In this document: positions 41 to 49,649 of the stretch, in pieces | Layout: each line of letters starts with the position of its first letter | Position numbering within the stretch: position 1 is the first letter of the stretch | Assembly: GCF_021917145.1 (NCBI RefSeq) | Contig: NC_061073.1 | Location: 6,354,550 to 6,418,549, forward strand | Length of the DNA stretch: 64,000 nt | Reading direction: 5' to 3' | From: Hypomesus transpacificus | Lineage: Eukaryota > Chordata > Actinopteri > Osmeriformes > Osmeridae | Made by a program: the position numbers and the translations under genes | Notes under the pieces: model-generated | The model's input: the letters and a program-made list of their open reading frames with translations, nothing else | Told to the model about the DNA's origin: nothing | The model's database searches: none

Positions 41-1105
41 GCAGGTACACGAGGGAAGGCAGATTGCAGCCAATCACCTTCTCGGCATTTCAGATGATAC
101 GCTGCAGCCTACTCTTGTCCTTGGCAGTGGCAGCAGCGTACCAGACGGTGATGGAGGAGGTGAGGATGGACTCAATGATGGCTGAGTAGAAGTGCACCAT
201 CATTGTCTTTGGCAGGTTGAATTTCTTCAGCTGCCGACGGAAGTACATCCTCTGTTGTGCTTTCGTGATGAGGGAGCCGATGTTGGGATCCTGGGAGAGG
301 ATAGTGCCTAGGAAGCTGAAGGACTCCACAGTGTTGACTGGGGAGTCACTCGGTGATGGGGGTGATTGGGGCTGTGTTCGTCCTGAAGTCCACAACCATC
401 TCCACTGTCTTAAGAGCATTGAGCTCTAGGTTGTTCTGGCTGCACCAGGTCACCAGGTTGGCCGCTTCCCACCTATAATCAGACTCGTCTCCACCAGAGA
501 TGAGCCCAATAAGGGTGGTGTCGTCCGCAAACTTCAGGAGTTTGACGTACGGATGACTGGAGGTGCAGCTGTTGGTGTACAGGGAGAAGAGCAGAGGAGA
601 AAGGACGCAGCCCTGAGGTGATCCAGTGCTGATGGACCGGGAGTCAGAGACTTGTGTTCCCAGCTTAATGCACTGCTTCCTGTCAGACAGAAAGTCTGTG
701 ATCCACCTGCAGATGGAATCAGGCACGTTTAGCTGGGAGAGCTTGTCCTGAAGCAGGGCTGGAATGATGGTATTGAAGGCAGAGCTGAAGTCCACAAACA
801 GGATCCTCGCGTAGGATGCTGGGGAGTCCAGGTTCTGTAGAGTGAAGTGGAGGGCCATGTTAACTGCGTCGTCCACAGACCTGTTGGCTCTGTAGGCAAA
901 CTGCAGGGGGTCCTGTAGAGGGTCAGTGATGGATTTAAGGTGTGCCAGCACCAGGCGCTCAAAAGACTTCATTACCACAGAGGTCAGGGCGACGGGTCTG
1001 TAGTCATTATGTCCAGTTGGCCTGGGCTTTTTTGGCACAGGGATGATGGTGGAGGACTTGAGAAGGGATGGGAAGGGATGGTTCAGGGCAGACGTGTTTA
1101 GTGCT
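41..1105 (-). mobile_element. LINE fragment (CR1/L2/Rex1 group), antisense
   Basis: Minus-strand reading from 1038 gives a reverse transcriptase palm region: a [10 protein letters not shown] block (first catalytic Asp), [14 protein letters not shown], and the FADDTTLIG box with the catalytic Asp pair. The thumb and C-terminal part (ESILTSSITVWY) continues in another frame at 90-419, so the copy carries at least one frameshift. No 5' end or endonuclease domain is present, so it is 5'-truncated as usual for LINEs. It interrupts the LTR sequence at about base 40. The clade is judged from motif style only. Confidence 0.85.
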
Positions 1106-2885
1106 TGGAATGCTGGAAACGACCGGGATACAAACTTTTCGGAGATGCCGTTAAGACTGGCATGCTAGCAAGCTACCAAACCGAGTCTACAAGAGGAGCG
1201 GTAAAGGAAAGAATTGTGAGTACAGCCAATTCGAAGATAGGTGACTGTAAAAGGAACAAGTGCATTCTGCTTACACCTGTATTGGGATTTCTTTTTTTGG
1301 AAAAAGTTTGAAGAAATTGCGGGGATAATTGGAAGCATTGGTGCTTTGATGAACTGATTGAACTGATTGAGTGCATACACTGAACGTTTTGGATACTTTG
1401 TAGCTGCAAATAGCATTGGCGAGGGGAAGACAGTACCCACGTTTCTTAGCGTGATGGGAGCTAAGACGTTAAATCTGCTGCGCTCTTTGATGCAGCCGGA
1501 TAAGCCCGGGACAAAACGTATGATGTGATTGTGTAAACATTAGCAAGGCACTTCTCTCCACACCCATTGATCATAGCGGAACGTTTCCGTTTCCATAAGA
1601 GGAATCAAGAGGAGGGGGAGTCCGTTAATATGTTTGTTGCTACCATGAAAAGGTTAGCAGAGCATTGTGAATTTAAAGAGTCGCTAAGCGAAGTAATAAG
1701 AGACAGACTGGTGTATGGTCTGAGGAGTGAAGCCATACAGAAAAGGTTGCTGACGGAAAGGGCATTGACACTGGACAGGGCATCGGAAATAAGTGTGTCC
1801 ATGGAGATGGCCGCTAAAGAGGCACATCAGCTAAGTTCAAGTACCACACTGCATGAGATTTCAAATGAAACTTATGAAAAGCAAATCAAATGCTACAGAT
1901 GTGATCAGATTGGACATGTAGCATCTGAATGCTGGAGCAAAACTGGATTGTAGGAACTGCGGGGGAAAAGGGTCACATCGAACGTGCTTGCAAGAGTAAA
2001 AGGATAACAAACAGTAAAAGGGAGCCTCAGCCACCAAAACGTGCTGGGAAAAAGAAAGCGGTGTATAATGTGACAATCGTCCGCAATTTGTCTCTGCAGA
2101 TCTTGCCGAGTTTCTTGAAAGACACGGAATTCAACATATACGGTCTGCTCCATATCACCCCGCTACTAACGGATTAGCAGAAAGGTTTATTCAGAGCATG
2201 AAACACTCACTCAAGGCTTTACAAGGACAAGATTCCCTCCATCAACGACTGCATGCTTTTTTGTTGTCGTACAGGAATGTGCCACATGGAACGACAAAGG
2301 AGTCTCCGTCAACACTTCTGATGAAAAGACGTTTGCCTACCAGCTTCGATCTTCTGAAACCTCCCAGGACGAAGGCGGCGGTGTGGCGTGAGCAACGGGT
2401 ACAGATACAAAGGCGGCAGAAGACGGCAAGAGACGAGGTCTTCTGTCCTGGAGACCCGGTGATGGCACGTAAATATACAAGTGGTGCAAAATGGGTTCCA
2501 GGCACAATACTACACAATACAATACTTGCACAGACAGGTCCTGTGTCTTACACGGTCCAAACAGCTGAGGACAGGGTCTGGAGGAGACACACAGATCAAC
2601 TTTCTACAGGGAAAAACAACTCCAGTGTTGTGTTCGCCTGGGGGGTGTCCACAACAGTGCCACAACTTCCCACCGAGGTCCCTACTACCATCAGCGTGCC
2701 AGTGCAAATTCCAAAGTCTGCGTCAATCGCTCTAGACCCAGTTTCTCCAAGGGCTGAGTCTATGTCATCCCCATCTACACCGTTGCCACTGCCTGGCAAC
2801 CCCGGTGTGTCCTCACCCAAAGAATTGACTGTTCGTCGGTATCCAGTCATTCAACACCGACCACCAAACCGTTTGAAGTAGACTT

Positions 2886-3081
2886 TAGGGAGTCAGGTGG
2901 CTGAACGGTGAGGAAATCGGGCTGGTAATCTGAAGGTTGCCAGTTCGATTCCCGGCCGAGCCAAATGACGTTGTGTCCTTGGGCAAAGCACTTCACCCTA
3001 CTTGCCTCGGGGGGAATGTCCCTGTAGTTACTGTAAGTCGCTCTGGATAAGAGCGTCTGCTAAATGACTAAATGTAAATGT
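2886..3081 (+). mobile_element. tRNA-derived SINE with L2-type tail, copy 1
   Basis: The head looks like a Ser/Leu-type tRNA gene, with an A box (GTGGCTGAACGGT) and a B box (GGTTGCCAGTTCGATTCC). A conserved body (GTGTCCTTGGGCAA, then CTTGCCTC) follows. The tail, CTCTGGATAAGAGCGTCTGC then repeated AAATGTAA, is nearly the same as the 3' end of the L2 LINEs elsewhere in this window. A second copy lies at 31903-32089. It is non-coding and depends on LINE machinery. Confidence 0.85.
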
Positions 3082-3831: not shown

Positions 3832-5056
3832 AGTTCAAGTTCAAGTCTTTTATTTGTCAGGTGCACAGAGCAACACAAGGTTAGACTGGGCACTGAAATT
3901 CTTAAGACAAGACAACGCAAGCACTTGGCATAACATAACATATAAGTACACAGAACAAATTTACATCTATGCTGAGCTTAGATAAGTGAACTTCCTAAAT
4001 ATACAGATAGCAATAAATAAACGACTATACTAACCCTAACACTAAAACTTCCTAAATTACAGATAACAATAAATAGTACGCTATACTAACCCTAATACAC
4101 AAAAAAAAAAAAAAAAAAAAAAACCTGTTACAACCCTATAAACTAATCTAACCTAAATGGAGTACAGTGCAGTAGTGCAAATTTACAGATCAGTGACTTT
4201 GTCAATGACCAAACAGGAGCCTGGTGGCGAGGTACAGTAGTGCAATGTTACTGAAAGAGCAACCAGTAGCTGAAAGTGACAGTGTATAAGTGACTAGTGT
4301 GCAGTAAAAATGTCCATATCAGTGTCCATTGAGAAGCCTGATGACCCTTGGGTAGAAACTGTTGTCCAGTCTGCGTGTGCGCGACCGGATGCTGCGGTAA
4401 CGCCTGCCAGAAGGCAACGGGGTAAAGAGACTGAAGGATGGGTGGGAACAGTCTCTTAGAATCCTGCTGGCTTTCCTAAGGCAACGTGTGTGGTAGGTGT
4501 CCTGTAGGGCTGGGAGCTTCCTGCCGATGATGAACTCAGCAGAACGGACCACACTTCGTAGGGCCTTGCGGTCCCGGTCTGTGCAGCTCCCATACCACAC
4601 TGTGATACAACCAGTCAGAATGCTTTCTATAGTGCATCTGTAAAAGTTAGTAAGGATGACTGAGTCCATACCAAACTTCTTCAGTCTCCTCAGGAAGAAG
4701 AGGCGCTTACGGGCCGTTTTGACCACCTTGTCCGTGTGAACAGACCAGGTGAGGTCATTGCTGATGTTCACCCCGAGGAACTTGAAGCAGCTGACCTTCT
4801 CCACTTCCGATCCATTGATGAATAGGGGTGCATGCTCCTCCTCCTGCCGCCTCCTAAAGTCCACAATCATCTCCTTGGTCTTGCTGATGTTAAGAGAGAG
4901 GTTGTTGTCCTGACACCATGATGTCAGGGTGTCAACCTCCTCTCTGTAGGCTGACTCGTCACTGTCAGAGATGAGGCCCACGATGGTTGTGTCGTCAGCA
5001 AACTTAACGAGGAGGTTGGAGCTGTGCGTAGCCGCACAGTCGTGGGTGAACAAGGA
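3832..5056 (-). mobile_element. LINE fragment (CR1/L2/Rex1 group), antisense, second copy
   Basis: Minus-strand reading at 4319-5056 gives the C-terminal half of a LINE reverse transcriptase: KFADDTTIVGLI, CFKFLGVNI, ESILTGCITVWYG and the final SGRRYRSIRSRTRRLDNSFY block, ending in a normal stop. Downstream of that is a 3' UTR and a tail of AAGTTC repeats (plus-strand sense) at 3833-3850. It is 5'-truncated. GGTTCGTACGT lies on both sides, once at the left and three times at the right. It is a distinct family from the copy at 41-1105, though clearly related. Confidence 0.85.
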
Positions 5057-5494
5057 GGTTCGTACGTGGTTCGTACGTGGTTCGTACGTGGTTCGCAACG
5101 AGCACCACTTCGGAGCTGGTCTAGTTTACGAACCAATAAAGAACCGCTTGGGGCGGGGTTACCGTGACCAACAAAACGCTTTGGCCGCCATTGCTCTAAG
5201 TTTTTACAATTCATATTTCAGCTAAACGGTACTTCAGAATCTGAATAAAAATGTATCGAGAAGTGGGCAGTTTAGTTGCTGAAAATGTGCTTATTTTATT
5301 GATGAAACTGCTAATTTGTAAATTTGCTCCGACTTCTCGAAAACCTAGCTCTAGCATCTCACCACGCTTGCTCCTGGGGCGGGGTTGCCGGGGGCGGGGT
5401 TAGCAGGGGCGGGGTTACCGTGAGCAACAAAACAGGAACAGAAACATTCGACCGCCAATATTGAAGTTGTAGCTACCTGTAAACAACAATCAAA

Positions 5495-8923: not shown

Positions 8924-11900
8924 ATGCCACTTATCATAATGTGTGGTTTCCCTTGTAGTGGGAAAACACGAAGGGCAGTAGAATTAAAACATTATTTTGA
9001 ACAGAACGCAGAAAGAAAAGTTCATGTTGTAGGAGATGGAACGTTGGGGATCGAGAGAAATGCCATGTATGCAGGTAATGTTTAGATACCAATGAGCTTC
9101 CATATGGGGCAGTGAATATTTTGTAGCATTAGTCTGATATGCTTGTGCAGTCATTATACCCCTGGATGATACGTTTTACAGATTCACAGAGTGAGAAAAG
9201 TGTGAGAGGAGCTTTAAGAGCTGAGGTGGAGCGGTGAGTTAATTAGTCTAAAATTCTGCTACACAAACTAGGTATGATATGCTAGAATTACACTTTTGTT
9301 CACGTGGCATTTAAAAAAAAAAAAAATACAAATTTGTTTCCGAATTAGTTTTCTTGACAGGCCTCTTAATGTCATCGTGTTCATTTATGTTAATAGGAAG
9401 GTCAGTAAGGATGATATTGTCATTCTGGATTCATTGAATTACATAAAAGGTAACAACATATTTAATCGTTAAAACCCTTGACATTTTATAGGTTATTTTA
9501 CACTTTGTTTAAGTGTAAATGTGTTTCACTTTTTTTAAGTGTAAATGTGTTTCACTTTGACAGTACTTTAGTTCAAATGTACTGTTCCACCTGTTCATCC
9601 TTTAGGTTACAGATATGAACTTTTCTGTCTTATTAAACACACACAGACGCCTCACTGTCTGGTGAGTAGCTTACAGATGCACTCCTACAGCATTATGATA
9701 TTTATAAAAAGGGGTAAAGTAGTTACAAGGTCTTGCAGAAATAAACCCCTTTTAAAACATTGTATTATTAATATTTCCAATCAGTGTTTGCACAACATGT
9801 ATAGCCTGTTCAAAATGTACTGTATATTATTAGTAATTCATTTTATGCATCGTAGGTGTACTGTTTGACATCAGCGGAAGTGAGTTCGGCATGGAATACA
9901 CACAGGGATGTTGGGGACCAGTACACTCAGGAGATGTAAGTATGTTGTGGTTCATTTGTCTTGTCTCACTCAGTTATTCTGCTGGACCTTTCTGCAACGT
10001 TTGATACGGTTAACCACCAGATCCTGCTCTCCAGACTTTCTGAAATGGGCATCACTGGCACCGCACTCCAGTGGATCTCATCCTACCTGTCGGGAAGATT
10101 CTACCAGGTCTCCTGGGGAGGCAAACTGTCAGGCCCTCGCCAGCTCTCCACTGGTGTCCCACAGGGCTCCGTCCTTGGACCCCACCTCTTCTCTCTGTAC
10201 ACCACCTCACTTGGACCAATCATCACCTCCCATTGCTTCTCCTACCACTGCTACGCTGACGACACGCAGCTGTACCTGTCGTTCCCCCCGAATGATCCGG
10301 GGATCTCAGCTAGGATTGAGGCCTGCCTCACAGACATCTCCGCCTGGATGACCGAGCACCACCTCAAGCTGAACCTCGCCAAAATAGAACTTCTCATCAT
10401 CCCGGCTAAACCCTCCATCTCCCACGATCTGTCAATCACCCTGGGATCTGCGACGGTGACCCCTTCATCCTCTGCCAGGAACCTTGGGGTTACCATGGAT
10501 GACGAGCTCTCCCTCACGGCCCACATTGCTGCAGTCTCCCGGTCTTATAGATTCACCCTCTACAACATCCGGAAGATCAGGAGATACCTGTCTGAGCACT
10601 CCACCCAGCTGCTAGTCCAAGCACTTGTCCTCTCCAAGTTGGATTACTGCAACTCGCTGCTCGCTGGTCTCCCAGCATGTGCAACCTGCCCTCTTCAGAG
10701 GATTCAGAACGCAGCGGCCCGCCTGGTCTACTATCTACCCAGACGCTCCCATGTTATCCCGCTCCTCATCTCTCTCCACTGGCTACCCATCAACGCCCAC
10801 ATCAGATTCAAGACCCTGGTACTGACCTTCCGAGCAGTGAACGGGACTGCACCTGACTACATCAAGTCTCTCCTGCAACCTTACACCCCCAAGACGCACT
10901 TATTCCGGGAGTACTACGGCACTTAGGAATGCTTGATTGGACCTGATGTTAGTTTCCTCCAGGATCACAATGACTCTTATTGAGAGACTTGTTGCTTTTG
11001 TAGGTTAGTCATAGCGAAGTTAACTCTTGAACTCTTGTACTCGCTGTGAAATATTTTACTGTTGATTGTTCTTCTACAGGTACAGTCCTGCACTTTTTTG
11101 TGATTCATGTTGTTTTAATTTGTAACTTGTATAACTGCATGCTCTTATGGGTCTTTCCTTTGGCACTTGTTTAGTTTTTTTCACAATGTATGCTTCATGT
11201 TTTGGCTGCTTGCAATGTTTGGGACTACCTCGTTGTTATGATCAGTGACCTATGCTCTTTTGTAAAGCTCTCTCTTGGAAGTCGCTTTGGATAAAAGCGT
11301 CTGCTAAATGCATAAATGTAATGTAAATGTAAATGATGTAGTGTATGTATGATGTAGATTTATGTTTTGTTTTTGCAGCTTGGATGCATTAGTTTTGAGG
11401 TTTGAAGCACCAGACTCCAGAAACAGATGGGACAGCCCACTTTTCACTATTCAGAAAGAAGACACACTTCAGTTTGAAGCCATCTCAGATGCCATCTTCA
11501 AAAGAAAAGCCCCGCCTCCTAACCAGTCTACACAGAGTGTGAGAAATGGATCACTGGCATTCTCGATCACTCTCACTCTTTCTCTTTCTGTCTTTTTCAT
11601 TCTCAATCGCAATCAAATACAAAACAATAGGCGACTATATATCTTTTCATATTCAATTTCAACAGGGTCAAATCATCTGTGCTGATTGTTAACTATGGTT
11701 GATGTATGATGCACATGGTTTAATATGGCCTCTTTTATATTCAATTATATATTTATTTTGTCTGTAAATTACAGCAACCACTGTCATCAACAAACTTTTT
11801 GTATGAACTGGACAAGGTCACACAAGATGTATTGATGGTGAGGATTTCTATCCAAAAGTGTTCCTGATTTTCCTTTTAAATCCCTTTGTTCAGAATTTCT

Positions 11901-12819
11901 GTCTGGTCTTGAATTGCTCTTTTAACCCCTGCAGTCTGATGACATATTTCTGTTTTTCAGGCTATTCTGAACTCACAGAAGACAAGTGTTCCTGGGGATC
12001 TCATTGCAGTACCAGGTGCTACAGAAAAGATATCCTTTACTGATGGCATTCCAGTAATATATGTAATCCATTTATAGTTGTTCACCTACAAGGCTATAGA
12101 TAGAAACGCCAACCAAGTATAACTGTTCAGTTACTGGCCATGTTTAATTGTATTGCCACCATATGACTAACCCTATGTCTGAAACTGACTTGAGTTAGCC
12201 AGCCTACATTAAATACTCAGACTTCTCAGAATACTTTGCCATGGGTAGCGGATGAATGTATGTGCATCAAAGACCATGGCCGTGGGAACTGCTGACAGCA
12301 TGAGAATTTAAAATTATATGACTTGAAAATCCACCACGTGGCCCCGCAACATTAAGCCCCCCCCCCCTGATAAAATATGTTCGCGTGGCTATGTCAAAGA
12401 CCATCATTAAGTTCATTCCAGATAGCAGCAGATCAATGGAATCGTCTGAAAGGGCTTGCCTTTAAGCGTGTGGGATGTTGGAAAGGAGAATTTAGTTTGA
12501 CTGGCTTGGCAGGAGATGACCAATGGAACCGGATGATTTGTTCCTCTGGCTCACTTTAAACTTCCCTTTTTGATATTGTTGTTAGATGTAGCAACATGTA
12601 ATTAGAACAGTCACATACTGTATTTTTCAGCTCAGAATGATTTTCCCTGGTGTTTCCTTTAACCTGATTTCAAACATAGAACTCACTCGAAGTCTCAACA
12701 TGGTGGAACTCCGGAAGCTACGTCGCCAGTTCATCAGTTACACCAAAACACACCCGACAGAGAACATTGGACACATTGCTAACATGTTTGTACAGTATCT
12801 AAACAAAAGTATTCATTGA
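8924..12819 (+). CDS. kti12: Kti12, Elongator-associated P-loop protein (9 exons, 275 aa)
   Basis: KTI12 is a P-loop ATPase that binds Elongator and tRNA and is needed for U34 wobble modification. Exons: 8924-9074, 9182-9233, 9397-9449, 9606-9661, 9856-9935, 11379-11538, 11775-11837, 11961-12029, 12676-12819, summing to 828 nt (275 codons plus stop) with phases joining cleanly. The Walker A motif GFPCSGKT is at residues 8-15. [17 protein letters not shown] and the C-terminal [12 protein letters not shown] block match the family. [12 protein letters not shown] is also a family signature. The human protein is longer (about 354 aa) through a low-complexity middle insert, and the human gene is a single exon. 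Intron 5 holds an L2 LINE. Intron 8 is AT-AC. The start gives the conserved MPLIIMCG N-terminus. Confidence 0.95.
9950..11339 (+). mobile_element. L2 LINE, 5'-truncated, in kti12 intron 5 (sense)
   Basis: Reads through a reverse transcriptase: [27 protein letters not shown] and [16 protein letters not shown], then a 3' UTR. It ends with GTCGCTTTGGATAAAAGCG and an AAATGTAA-type tail. Near 10890 the coding sequence jumps from YTPKTHLF to the last residues, so ~150 bases present in the copy at 34313-35463 are missing here. It begins inside the reverse transcriptase. It lies in the same orientation as kti12, 15 bases or so beyond the donor of exon 5. Confidence 0.9.
12030..12675 (+). other. kti12: U12-type AT-AC intron of kti12 (intron 8)
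   Basis: Exon 8 ends GCTACAGAAAAG and the intron starts ATATCCTTTA, the U12 5' splice-site consensus. Upstream of the acceptor lies TCCTTTAAC, close to the U12 branch site TTCCTTRAC. Its branch A is 13 bases from the terminal AC at 12674-12675. Splicing AT to AC joins the frame exactly (GATEK to IELTRSLN), giving the same spacing as human KTI12 (GTTEH-LRFTRPL). Using the nearby AG four bases on would shift the frame. Confidence 0.9.
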
Positions 12820-15029: not shown

Positions 15030-18000
15030 ATGAGCAACTTTGAGGTACGTGTGCCACTTATGTTGCTGTCAACGGTCATTGTGTCAAAGCAGCAGTCATA
15101 TAGCTGCGTCCTGATAGTGTCGACGTCAAGTGATATTTCTATACCAATGGTTCTTAGGCTATACAACCAAATGAAGTCCGCTTGCTGTGTAGCAAAAAGA
15201 TAATACATTTCATGTTCAAATACCGGTAACGTAATTGTGGATGCTATTTGTAAAATAAATAGTAGGAAACTTAGTTTTTTGTACATTGTACACAGGCATC
15301 AGCATTGGACAACCATGGGTTATCGACTTCCTTGTCTCATAAGGAGAAAGAGAACCAGGGTCAGACAGACCCAGCCCGTGGTGGCCCTCAACCGGTTTGC
15401 AGGTTCTTCGCACAGGGACGCCACTGTAATTTTGGGAGTAAGTGTCACTTCCTCCATCAAAAAAGAGATCTTAAATCTGCAAAGGGTCAGTTTGAAAACA
15501 GTACAAATAGGCAAACAGATCAGGGAAGCCCAATTGTGGAGGTCACACAGGCCAAGGAAACTAGCTCTGGAGAAGTAGGTCACAGGCCTGGGCCAGCCAA
15601 ACATGAGAGAGCGAACCACCGGCCCTGTCGATATTTCCTCTCTGGCTTCTGTTCCATGGAGGATAAGTGCCGTTTCTGGCATCCGGAGCATTTCTCCCAG
15701 TTTGAGGTCCAGTCTGTACAAAGAGATGTAGCCAGAGCCAGGCCAAGCCTACCTGCTCCTTGTACCCCTCATGAAGTCAGACTCAGTGATCTGACAGACG
15801 ATCTTTCCAAACAACTGCGGGACACTGAGATTAAGCAGATGACAAAGCGTTTTCCCAAAGAACAGCTTATTGTTCAGGAACGGGACGACGGCCAAGTTAC
15901 TTTCTACAGGTTTTCAATTGAGGCCACAGATCCAGACTGGGTAATAATGGAATTTCCCTAATGCTTCACAAAGCAACATAAACATGTTCTTTGTTTTTAA
16001 CCCTTTTGTAAAACTTGGCTGACCAAGTTTCGGCTTTTGTAAAACTTGGCTGACCAAGTTTCGGCCTTTGTTAAACTGTCTAACTATGTTTCACAGCCTT
16101 TTGACCTCAAAGAAGTTGATGTTATGGTCAGCTTCCCAGAGAAATATCCTCAAGAGGTACGCACATTTCTACCTCATCATTACTTCAGTCATAATCTCGT
16201 GCAAAAGTCAATTTAAGACGGATTTGATCATCTTTTCATAGATTTTCACCATAGATATACCCCAGGACCAGGATTTGCCTTCAGTTATGGGACAGTAGGT
16301 GGAACTAATGCAGGAACACTGTTATTACACACAACTTTGATATCAGTTCTCTTACATTTGTTTTGTGTCCATACAGGCATGTGCAGCGGGCCTCCCTGGA
16401 GTGGCTGCAGGCTAAGCAGGCCACCAATCAGCTGATGGGGAAAGTGGAGCTGCTCTTCCGGCCGTTCCTTCGTTGGTTGGACCGGAGTTTAGAGAGACTG
16501 TTTACGGAGGGAGCCAGGCTGGTGAGACACCTCTACTCTATTCTACCTCTACTCAACTATTACTTAAATGCAGGATAGGCAAGTTTTCAATTTTAGCTTG
16601 AGTTTGAAAGGATAAATATCCCACCCCCTCCTTCAAAGCCACACCCCCAAAACACATGAATGCCTGCCTGACTACTGCCAGGAGGTAGGTAGGTAGACAG
16701 ACAAGTAGCCTGTCCAATCATTGCAGTCTCAACAACATTGCCTACCTTGCCTTTAAGAGTAGTGTGCTCTTATGGCGCCAATGTAGTAACATTATACGCA
16801 GCGAGTGGCTGGCTTGTGCTTCATTCCCAATACTTTCCATGATGGATTTATGTTTATGATGACCTCATGGATTCCTTGCACTACCATCCGCCATTTTTAT
16901 ACTCAAGGGTGATTTCAAACATTTGTCTTCTCTGTATTCAACTGTATTCATTTGCCTTCTCTGTCTTCATCTCTGTAGCTGAAAAAAGACCTTGACGTTG
17001 CGAGAGCAGGCCTGGAGTTTGTGCCCTTCCAGCAGCTTCAGGCAGCGGTGTGCAAGGAGCAGGGCGGCAGTGACACTGCTGACCCTGTCACCTGTACTTC
17101 AATTGCTGAGGGAGAGGAGAAGGAGGGGACTGAGGAAGAGGGGGTCAAAGATGACCCTGGATGTGATGACCAGGAGGAGGAAGGTGGTGGCCCAGTGGAG
17201 AACATCAAAACCAGCAATCCTCGGAGAGGCACTGAGGTCAAGCTGCTGGGTCTGACGCTGGGGGAGCAGACAGCCACTGTGGTTGCCAGACAGATCACCT
17301 TGTGTCTGCAGTGCAACAGGTGAGACCAGCCTTTCCCCACTGATGCAACAGTGGACATTCATCTTCTTACCTGATGAGTTTATCCTCCGCCGTATGTGTA
17401 CAAGCATATCTGACTACCCTGGTCTGTGTTATTGTCAGGTGTAAGGTAACGGCAGATTTAACGTTGAGTGCAAAGAGCCCCTGCACGGCCCAGTGTGAGA
17501 AATGCAGCTCGGGGATCAGCGCTGCGTTTAGACCCAGCATGCTGCACCATTACAGTGACGTGCTAGGATACCTGGACCTGACCAACGCTGTTCCTGTGGA
17601 CCTGATCCTCCAGGACTGTGCACTCATCGTGGGCTGCCTTAGCTGCTCCCAGGAGGGCCCTCTGGAAGTGAGCTAGCTTACATGTTACAAATAACAAATA
17701 CTAATTACAATACTAATTGTTTATGTGAGGTCAACTGAAAAACATGCATTTTGAAGGACCTAAATGTGTTGAATGTGTTGAAATGTTTTATCTTCTCAGA
17801 ACCTTTCGTATGGTCAGAGTATGGCCATCAACTGCCAACACTGCCACAGCAAACTGAGCGTCTTAGTTGACAGTACAAGGTTCCAGTACATTCCATCATG
17901 TTCTAAGGACAAATTAGGTCAGAGCACACTTGATAGTGGCCCATTGATGGTTAACCTGAGAGTATTCTGGTTTATCTCCTCTGTCCAAATATATGGTATC

Positions 18001-21006: not shown

Positions 21007-24000
21007 ATGATGAGTGATTTGCAGTTGATGGAATTGGAGGATGAGCTCAAGAGTGTAGATACATTTCTTGAACATCTCAAGACAGAAGAGGTAAAGCAGC
21101 TTCTGTTTTGTCTATAGTTAACAGTATTCCTTCTTACCAGTTCATATAAGATACATGGAGGCGTATTTAAAAGACATGAATCAGAAGGGTTACACTACTT
21201 TAACTGCTTTTTCTGTCAGTAGTCCGAAGGCATTTCCCATATTGGTAAACCTTTCTTAAACCAAGTTGTAATTCTAGACAGAGAAGAACAGACAGAAAAC
21301 TAAGACCACATCACCAAAGCCTGTTCATTGGAAGAAGAGGGACCACAATGGGGACATTGTTCACCAGCGCCCACGAGCCCTTAGAAAGCAGTCAACATCA
21401 CAAAGACCAGACGAAGGAAGACATGTTTCTTCTTCACCGCCATTAGACCATGGCCAACACCTAGACCATGGTGAATAATCTTTCGTTCCAAATGCTGTAT
21501 TTCAACAGTGTGTTGTGGCGATGTTGGAGTTACGATATTATTATTTTTTCTCCTCCCTTTTGAAGATTTGAATATGCGGCAGCTTGAGGACCTTCTACAG
21601 GACTCAGAGAACATGGAATCGCAAGATTTTGTTCAGCAGCCACCATTGTCCAGTTGGAGTCAAAGGCAGAAAGAGGTCCAACAATGTTGGCAACAGGCGA
21701 GGCCACAGAACCTTGACAATTTACTTTCTGCTGAGAACATCGTACAGATGACATGCAATCACTGTCACGTGAAAGAAGCTGTCATCCGTTGTGGGGAATG
21801 TATGCCCTCAGAGTGGTTTTGTGCTGAGTGTGATGGCTCGGTACATAAACACCACACTCTTCACAACAGGCAAACCATCATGGATGGATTTTTCAAATAC
21901 ATCCCACCAACAGAGGCTGTGACACTCTGTGACACTGGAAAATACAGCATTTGTGAACAAGGTTGGCATTTCTTTTACAATTGATTGTCAATTTTCTTAA
22001 CAGATCATTCTTATATGAAATTGAAATGTGTTATTTAAGTCATTACTCACAACCCAAACATTATTAATTGTATACCTTATGGTTCTTTGCCTTGCAGATT
22101 GTTTTCTGCCAACAGCTCTACCTCAAAGGATATGCTCCTGTGACACCGCTGATGCAGCAGTCTCTGTTGGTAGATCCATCATACTGGTTTGCATAAATGG
22201 TAGGATCTTGTTAAACTGTTGAATTTTTTTATATTACTAACACAGACACTGTTCCACCAGGATCTCTTCCATTCCTTTGAGGCTATGAACACAGCAGCTC
22301 CAGGAATGTCCAGACAAGCCTTTACAGCAATGTTGGACCAGAGAACAAAGCAATATGGAAGAGTAAGTAAAAAGCAGTTCAAGGTCCACAAGTGGCTGTA
22401 GTAGGTAGTACATATTTCAGATTATAGACTGAAGACCTTACCACACAAAATAGTCATTTGCTTCCTTATGGATTTGAAAAGTTGCATACAAAACACAAAA
22501 CATACAAAGGCAAAGATGTAGTTTATCGTTTTTGAAAGCTGTATTATATTATTTTCTTTAGACTGGCAAAGTGAATGCAGATGCATTTCAAAGAAGTTTT
22601 CTGCAATTTGTGTACTGCAACTATGAAGAGAACCAACTTCTTGGAAAGGAGCCATTGGTCTGTCCAGCCTGTAGCCCTGAAATTGTGGCTGTTTCTGTGG
22701 ATGGCAACAGAAAGTTGTACAGGTTCCAGAAAACAAACCAGTGAGTTCTGTGCACACATTATGAACAGCCAATGTAGTTAATATACAGTATGTCCAGCTG
22801 TTAATGACACTGTTAATGTCAATGTTTTTTTTGATAAGTGCTACATAAATAAAAGGTCCTATTACAAAGGTAGTCCATAATACATTGTCTTAAAGGAGTG
22901 AAGAGCCAGGGTTCTTCGATGGAGTGTTTTTAGCCCGAGACTCTGAGGTGTCCAGTTTTGTTGAGGAGGTCCGGGGAACTGTCAAGAGTGTACGTTTTAC
23001 ATTATTCTGAACAACATTTATTGGGATTATTTTGTTCTAATTAAAGTTAAAGTAGAAAACACGATTGCCTTCGGAGAAGGGAGTCTATGATCAGGTGGGG
23101 ATACAGCACTAGATTCTTATCCAGGGGGCACAGTACATTCATATTGCATATTGCTTTATCCTTCAAATGTAAGATAGGTCAGGCAATGACAAAATCTTGA
23201 CAGTTAAAGTTTGTGTGTTTGCGTGAACAGTCCTGCAATCTAGTGTACTTGAATTAACTATTGTCATGTTCAAATGATTTACTTTGGTAGACCGCAGGAA
23301 AAGCGATGTGTGGTGACACCCAATGGAATGCAGCAAGAGAGACTTCAAAGCGGGCCAACAATTTGGATGAAGAAGGTGTGGAATTTGCTGTGTGTAGACA
23401 TGGATTTCTTCTCAAAGGTTGGTATGGGTCTGATTAAGTAGTAGTAAAAAAATAAAATAATATATATTTATATTATGATCTAAATCTTCTTTCATGTGCA
23501 TTGTGCTTTTTTTAAAGGTCTGAATATGTATAGAGGAGAAATCTTTGCATATCCAATGTTTCTCCAAAAAGAGTTCCAGAGTGCTACATTTTTGGCCATG
23601 GATGTGACCTGCCGATATGTGCCATACTTGACAAAAGTGTCAGAGGCCCTGACGCATCTTCAACCCCTTCAGGAAATGAGGCATTGCTTGTCTGTGATGC
23701 ATGCCAAAGCCCACAATACAAAATGCGAGGTGATGCTTTTAGCTACTTGACCGTACATTTTAGAGTATGATGTGGCAAACTGAGTGTAAAATGCCATAAT
23801 AAATGACAATAGCCATACCACAGTGGTCTGGACTGACCCATACAACAACCTAGGAGTGTGTTTAAAGTTTTTCTGTAGCCCCTAAGTGCTGCCCTCTAAA
23901 GTTGGTAATCTCAGGATATGCTTCAATAACATGTGTCCACACCGCTTTACACATTATCTTCTTCCTGTAGATTCTGTGGACTGCAAGGAACCAGGAGGGC

Positions 24001-43535: not shown

Positions 43536-49649
<6,114 letters not shown>

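Follow-up and report, generated by a model that had tools for sequence, protein, structure and literature searches.

Whether the last intron of the modelled kti12 gene of Hypomesus transpacificus is a genuine minor-spliceosome intron, in a gene whose human counterpart is described as having a single exon, is the question raised by the 64,000-nucleotide stretch of genomic DNA analysed here (hereafter the window). The initial annotation, made from the sequence alone, had placed an AT-AC intron at this junction, with a U12-type donor and a branch site 13 nt before its end, and the sequence, the coordinates and the signals all proved to be as it described them. On the evidence assembled below, the reading of 12030-12675 as a true U12-type AT-AC intron belonging to kti12 is given a probability of roughly 0.92.

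Gene model and protein product

Positions 8924-12819 (+) of the window hold a nine-exon kti12 gene (Table 1), the exons of which join into an open frame 828 bases long that encodes 275 residues and closes with a stop codon. The 275-aa product matches the Pfam KTI12 profile at 332.4 bits (cut-off 22), with residues 1-271 aligned to profile positions 1-271 (271/271 positions), and it contains both the P-loop ATPase and the C-terminal domain of the KTI12 family, the entire profile being covered. In PDB, matches with E up to 0.1 comprise three entries, namely 6qp0, which is CtKti12 in the account of PMC11995267, and two L-seryl-tRNA(Sec) kinases (PSTK). The product is an Elongator-associated, PSTK-like ATPase. 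For the yeast protein, the C-terminal domain is described as binding tRNA and as needed for Elongator's wobble-uridine modification (PMC11995267; PMC7363723), and it is within this domain that the residues of the present product beyond 228 fall. Additionally, a genome search for KTI12 covering 437 Mb in 376 contigs gave matches at the kti12 locus only (three, with 10/10 candidates scored), and no intronless second copy was thus seen.

Table 1. Features of the kti12 locus, in positions of the window
Feature	Position	Strand	Remarks
kti12 exon 1	8924..9074	+	ATG 8924, P-loop
kti12 exon 2	9182..9233	+	flanked on both sides by GT-AG introns
kti12 exon 3	9397..9449	+	gene model
kti12 exon 4	9606..9661	+	gene model
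kti12 exon 5	9856..9935	+	gene model
kti12 exon 6	11379..11538	+	gene model, genome profile match
kti12 exon 7	11775..11837	+	gene model
kti12 exon 8	11961..12029	+	last codon is 228
kti12 intron 8, predicted AT-AC, U12-type	12030..12675	+	646 bp, phase 0; last in the modelled gene
U12 donor ATATCCTTT	12030..12038	+	9/9 against the consensus RTATCCTTT
dispersed genomic repeat inside intron 8	12289..12393	+	genome matches to the intron
branch motif TCCTTTAAC	12655..12663	+	7/9 against the consensus TTCCTTRAC; A12662, 13 nt before intron end
kti12 exon 9	12676..12819	+	through TGA 12817-12819; end of tRNA-binding domain

Splice choices at the exon 8-9 junction

The reading frame does not by itself single out the AT-AC pair, as the initial annotation had supposed: when GT-AG, GC-AG and AT-AC/AG combinations were enumerated for donors at 11965-12299 and acceptors up to 12719, with the frame kept to the stop, 97 pairs preserved it, 17 of them GT-AG (counted from the listing). 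The accompanying argument from residue spacing stands by the Pfam KTI12 profile, which takes the place of the human protein in the comparison (332.4 bits for AT-AC vs 298.4-319.4). Scoring covered the AT-AC form, four of the 96 other pairs and the retained form. The bits obtained were 318.3 for GT-AG 12016/12679, 318.5 for GT-AG 12054/12630, 319.4 for AT-AG 12030/12630, 298.4 for GT-AG 12009/12717 and 286.9 with the intron retained, which places the AT-AC product 13-34 bits over the four rival splice forms. Of the alternatives that were scored, the U12-type AT-AC model fits the junction best.

Minor-spliceosome signals of intron 8

The U12 donor consensus is RTATCCTTT, and the branch consensus TTCCTTRAC is expected some 10-20 nt upstream of the end of the intron. 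Intron 8 begins at AAG/ATATCCTTTA (12030) and ends at CAAAC/ATA (12675/12676), and shows no donor and two branch mismatches, against 3-7 donor and 3-5 branch mismatches in the other seven kti12 introns, all of which are GT-AG. It thus has the donor of the AT-AC subtype, a branch motif at the right spacing, weak when taken alone (0.11 by chance), and AT-AC ends at the junction that restores the protein. The exact branch adenosine is ambiguous, since TTCCTTTAA, one base upstream of TCCTTTAAC, reaches an equal branch score with 14 nt spacing.

In 20,000 draws from an order-2 Markov model built on the window, an [AG]TATCCTTT donor arises somewhere among 60 start positions with a probability of 0.0006, and a branch motif with at most two mismatches and the right spacing, before AC or AG and within 60 nt, with one of 0.11, giving a joint chance of about 7e-5 if the two are independent (0.0006 x 0.11). 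At such odds the branch motif adds little, and it is the donor that carries the U12 case. Even so, the donor sequence taken by itself is also present elsewhere: with both strands of the 64-kb window counted together, ATATCCTT occurs five times and ATATCCTTT twice, the second ATATCCTTT lying at 22133 on the minus strand; what counts is its position at the codon junction. Pairing with the U11 5' end was computed at -8.2 kcal/mol for the intron 8 donor vs -2.7 kcal/mol for a U2-like donor. With the pairing stretch of U12 snRNA, the branch motif reached -6.7, barely better than a hand-scrambled control (-6.3), and the perfect consensus -8.3.

In zebrafish, 22% of U12 introns are tabulated as AT-AC (PMC7367187 Table 2). 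Minor introns are described as avoiding phase 0, which makes up about 22% of them on average (PMC10639083), so that the phase of intron 8 is the less usual one.

Repeat content of intron 8 and of the window

Intron 8 matches the genome at 45 places, comprising itself and 44 others, all 44 within intron positions 246-371, while its ends gave no other match in this search, which skips very common words and scored the best 40 of 252 candidates. An introner or transposon-born origin of the intron was considered and found no support, as only this inner part is matched elsewhere in that search; with no other whole copy, there is no sign of a dispersed introner. At five other places in the genome, the two halves of the repeat stand about 305-385 bases apart, and the copy in intron 8 therefore looks internally deleted.

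Ten of the 94 open frames of the window were searched, and transposable-element pieces were seen among them and in one Rfam match. The pieces are RVT_1 at 349-1164 (-), an integrase core at 2069-2878 (+), an UnaL2 LINE 3' element at 3020-3073 (+; the Rfam match), ALKBH8_N together with an RVT_1 match below cut-off at 4322-5125 (-), and DDE_3 at 45626-46372 (+). Within kti12 intron 5, a 328-codon open frame at 9940-10923 (+) resembles by eye the reverse-transcriptase end of a LINE. Downstream of kti12, an open frame with CCCH zinc fingers at 15275-15958 (+) is an exon of another gene.

Minor-spliceosome components and control genes

An Rfam search of the genome returned one full-length U12 snRNA match at 128.9 bits (best 44 of 19,507 candidates scored), carrying the branch-pairing stretch GTAAGGA, and one full-length U11 snRNA match at 118.7 bits (best 40 of 20,810). 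The same kind of search gave no U6atac match among the best 46 of 24,394 candidates scored; a single U6atac pattern match was discarded as a false place, its flanks being unlike U6atac and Rfam making no call there. CENATAC, described as promoting AT-AN minor introns (PMC8280824), is represented by four exon-level six-frame matches, two of them with one internal stop, as can happen when six-frame matches run beyond the end of an exon.

As a positive control, ipo5 was found to hold an AT-AC intron at C12:6800962 (ATATCCTTTT; 184 bp, phase 1), with the donor ATATCCTTTTAA and a branch motif GTCCTTGAC that scores 8/9 and lies 9 nt before the terminal AC. The joined exons agree with a PDB importin-5 chain at 40/40 residues. 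Human IPO5 is described as carrying a minor AT-AC intron as its intron 21 (PMC8280824). Of the minor-spliceosome parts, U11, U12 and CENATAC are represented in this genome by sequence, and ipo5 supplies an AT-AC intron besides that of kti12.

The AT-AC intron of the human nop2 gene is a classic one. At the nop2 control locus (L034, G000:C2:12138000-12147999), the 10 kb scanned, possibly less than the whole gene, showed no U12-like donor on the strand of nop2, so this second control lends no support. The nop2 AT-AC intron may have been lost or converted in this animal. Two other candidate nop2 loci, L032 and L033, were discarded.

Proposed splicing route and rival explanations

In the proposed route, the donor of intron 8 would be read by U11 and U6atac and its branch motif by U12, and CENATAC would help this AT-starting subtype, the kti12 intron included. 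From this single locus, we infer that kti12 would depend on the minor spliceosome. Were the intron kept, translation would end at TAG 12075-12077 and yield a 243-aa protein, in which the last 47 residues of the tRNA-binding domain would be replaced by 15 intron-coded residues. If intron 8 is the last intron, as modelled, such an mRNA would carry no exon junction beyond the early stop and might evade decay. Since a higher basal retention is described for AT-AN introns (PMC8280824), the presence of some truncated Kti12 may reasonably be expected.

The closest competitor is an ordinary U2 GT-AG intron, either 12016-12679 (CAG/GTGCTA ... ACATAG/AAC), at the cost of six codons (GATEKI), or 12054-12630, with a gain of 23. 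Both keep the frame, the 12016 donor scores 6/9 against the U2 consensus, equal to the kti12 donor at 11539, and a good pyrimidine tract accompanies acceptor 12630. Nevertheless, both products fall 14 bits lower on Pfam KTI12 than the AT-AC form (318.3 and 318.5 vs 332.4), and this reading, which we consider unlikely, would leave to chance a 9/9 U12 donor and a correctly spaced branch motif (0.0006 x 0.11 if independent). The first of these pairs also enters into a more elaborate, and likewise improbable, arrangement. The U12 sites 12030/12675 lie just inside the frame-keeping pair 12016/12679, whose 6/9 donor equals the weakest of the other kti12 donors. Together they might form a switchable double intron that yields full-length Kti12 in versions of 275 aa and 269 aa, six residues apart in the tRNA-binding domain, of which the 269-aa form would rise when the minor spliceosome is weak. 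The U2 pair could then act as a fallback, and use of alternative major sites is described under CENATAC shortage (PMC8280824).

Removal of an AT-AC intron by the major (U2) spliceosome has precedent, as 85 major introns of the AT-AC or related subtypes have been examined (PMC8280824). For intron 8 it is nonetheless very unlikely, given that AT-AC ends are tabulated for 0.02% of zebrafish U2 introns (PMC7367187 Table 2) and that the donor is the U12 nonamer, unlike those of the seven other introns of the gene. A decayed kti12 or an assembly artefact at the junction is barely credible in view of the single locus in the genome search, the open frame across nine exons and the full-length 332-bit match. 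The U12-type AT-AC intron is the preferred reading.

History of the gene

That human KTI12 has a single exon, as the initial annotation had stated, is borne out by its description as a single-exon nested gene (PMC3192792) and as a retrogene inside a TXNDC12 intron (PMC5408686). On this literature, the human gene lacks the U12 intron because it is a retrogene, which makes the intron-bearing kti12 probably the older form, the direction of change being one that we infer. Among vertebrate U12-intron losses, 3/8 are put down to retroposition, among them that of CCDC16, whose U12 intron is described as lost in mammals in this way (PMC2831892). KTI12, as interpreted here, fits this known route of U12-intron loss by retroposition.

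As a check of the retrogene account by synteny with TXNDC12, the sole Thioredoxin_7 match was considered and rejected as TXNDC12; judged by eye, it is presumably a UAS-domain protein. In the 10 kb around it, tblastn gave nothing persuasive for kti12, the best E being 1.6.

Implications

As predicted here, kti12 intron 8 is a real, ordinary minor AT-AC intron and adds a good case to an established intron class. No report of a minor or U12-type intron in KTI12 was found in the main text of the open-licence PMC papers searched. In yeast, the modification of wobble uridines is described as requiring Kti12, which assists Elongator (PMC11995267). If intron 8 is spliced as modelled, this animal, unlike people, would need the minor spliceosome for its supply of this helper, and minor-spliceosome mutants of relatives sharing the intron would then suffer from impaired tRNA modification, which human patients are spared. 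Moreover, human-based lists would omit one more U12 intron, the human gene being a retrocopy.

Comparison with known systems

The AT-AC intron of IPO5 and kti12 intron 8 share the ATATCCTTT donor, a U12-like branch motif and the AC end. They differ, as found in this genome, in phase (1 in ipo5 vs 0), length (184 vs 646 bp) and branch score (8/9 vs 7/9). A further difference lies in the human genes, since IPO5 is described as having a minor AT-AC intron there too, whereas KTI12 is described as single-exon. With regard to CCDC16, the loss has been traced across species, whereas the older state of KTI12 is drawn from one genome and from papers on the human gene. The two are nevertheless alike in their described outlines, each with a U12-type intron in the intron-bearing form that is absent from an intronless human gene taken as a retrocopy.
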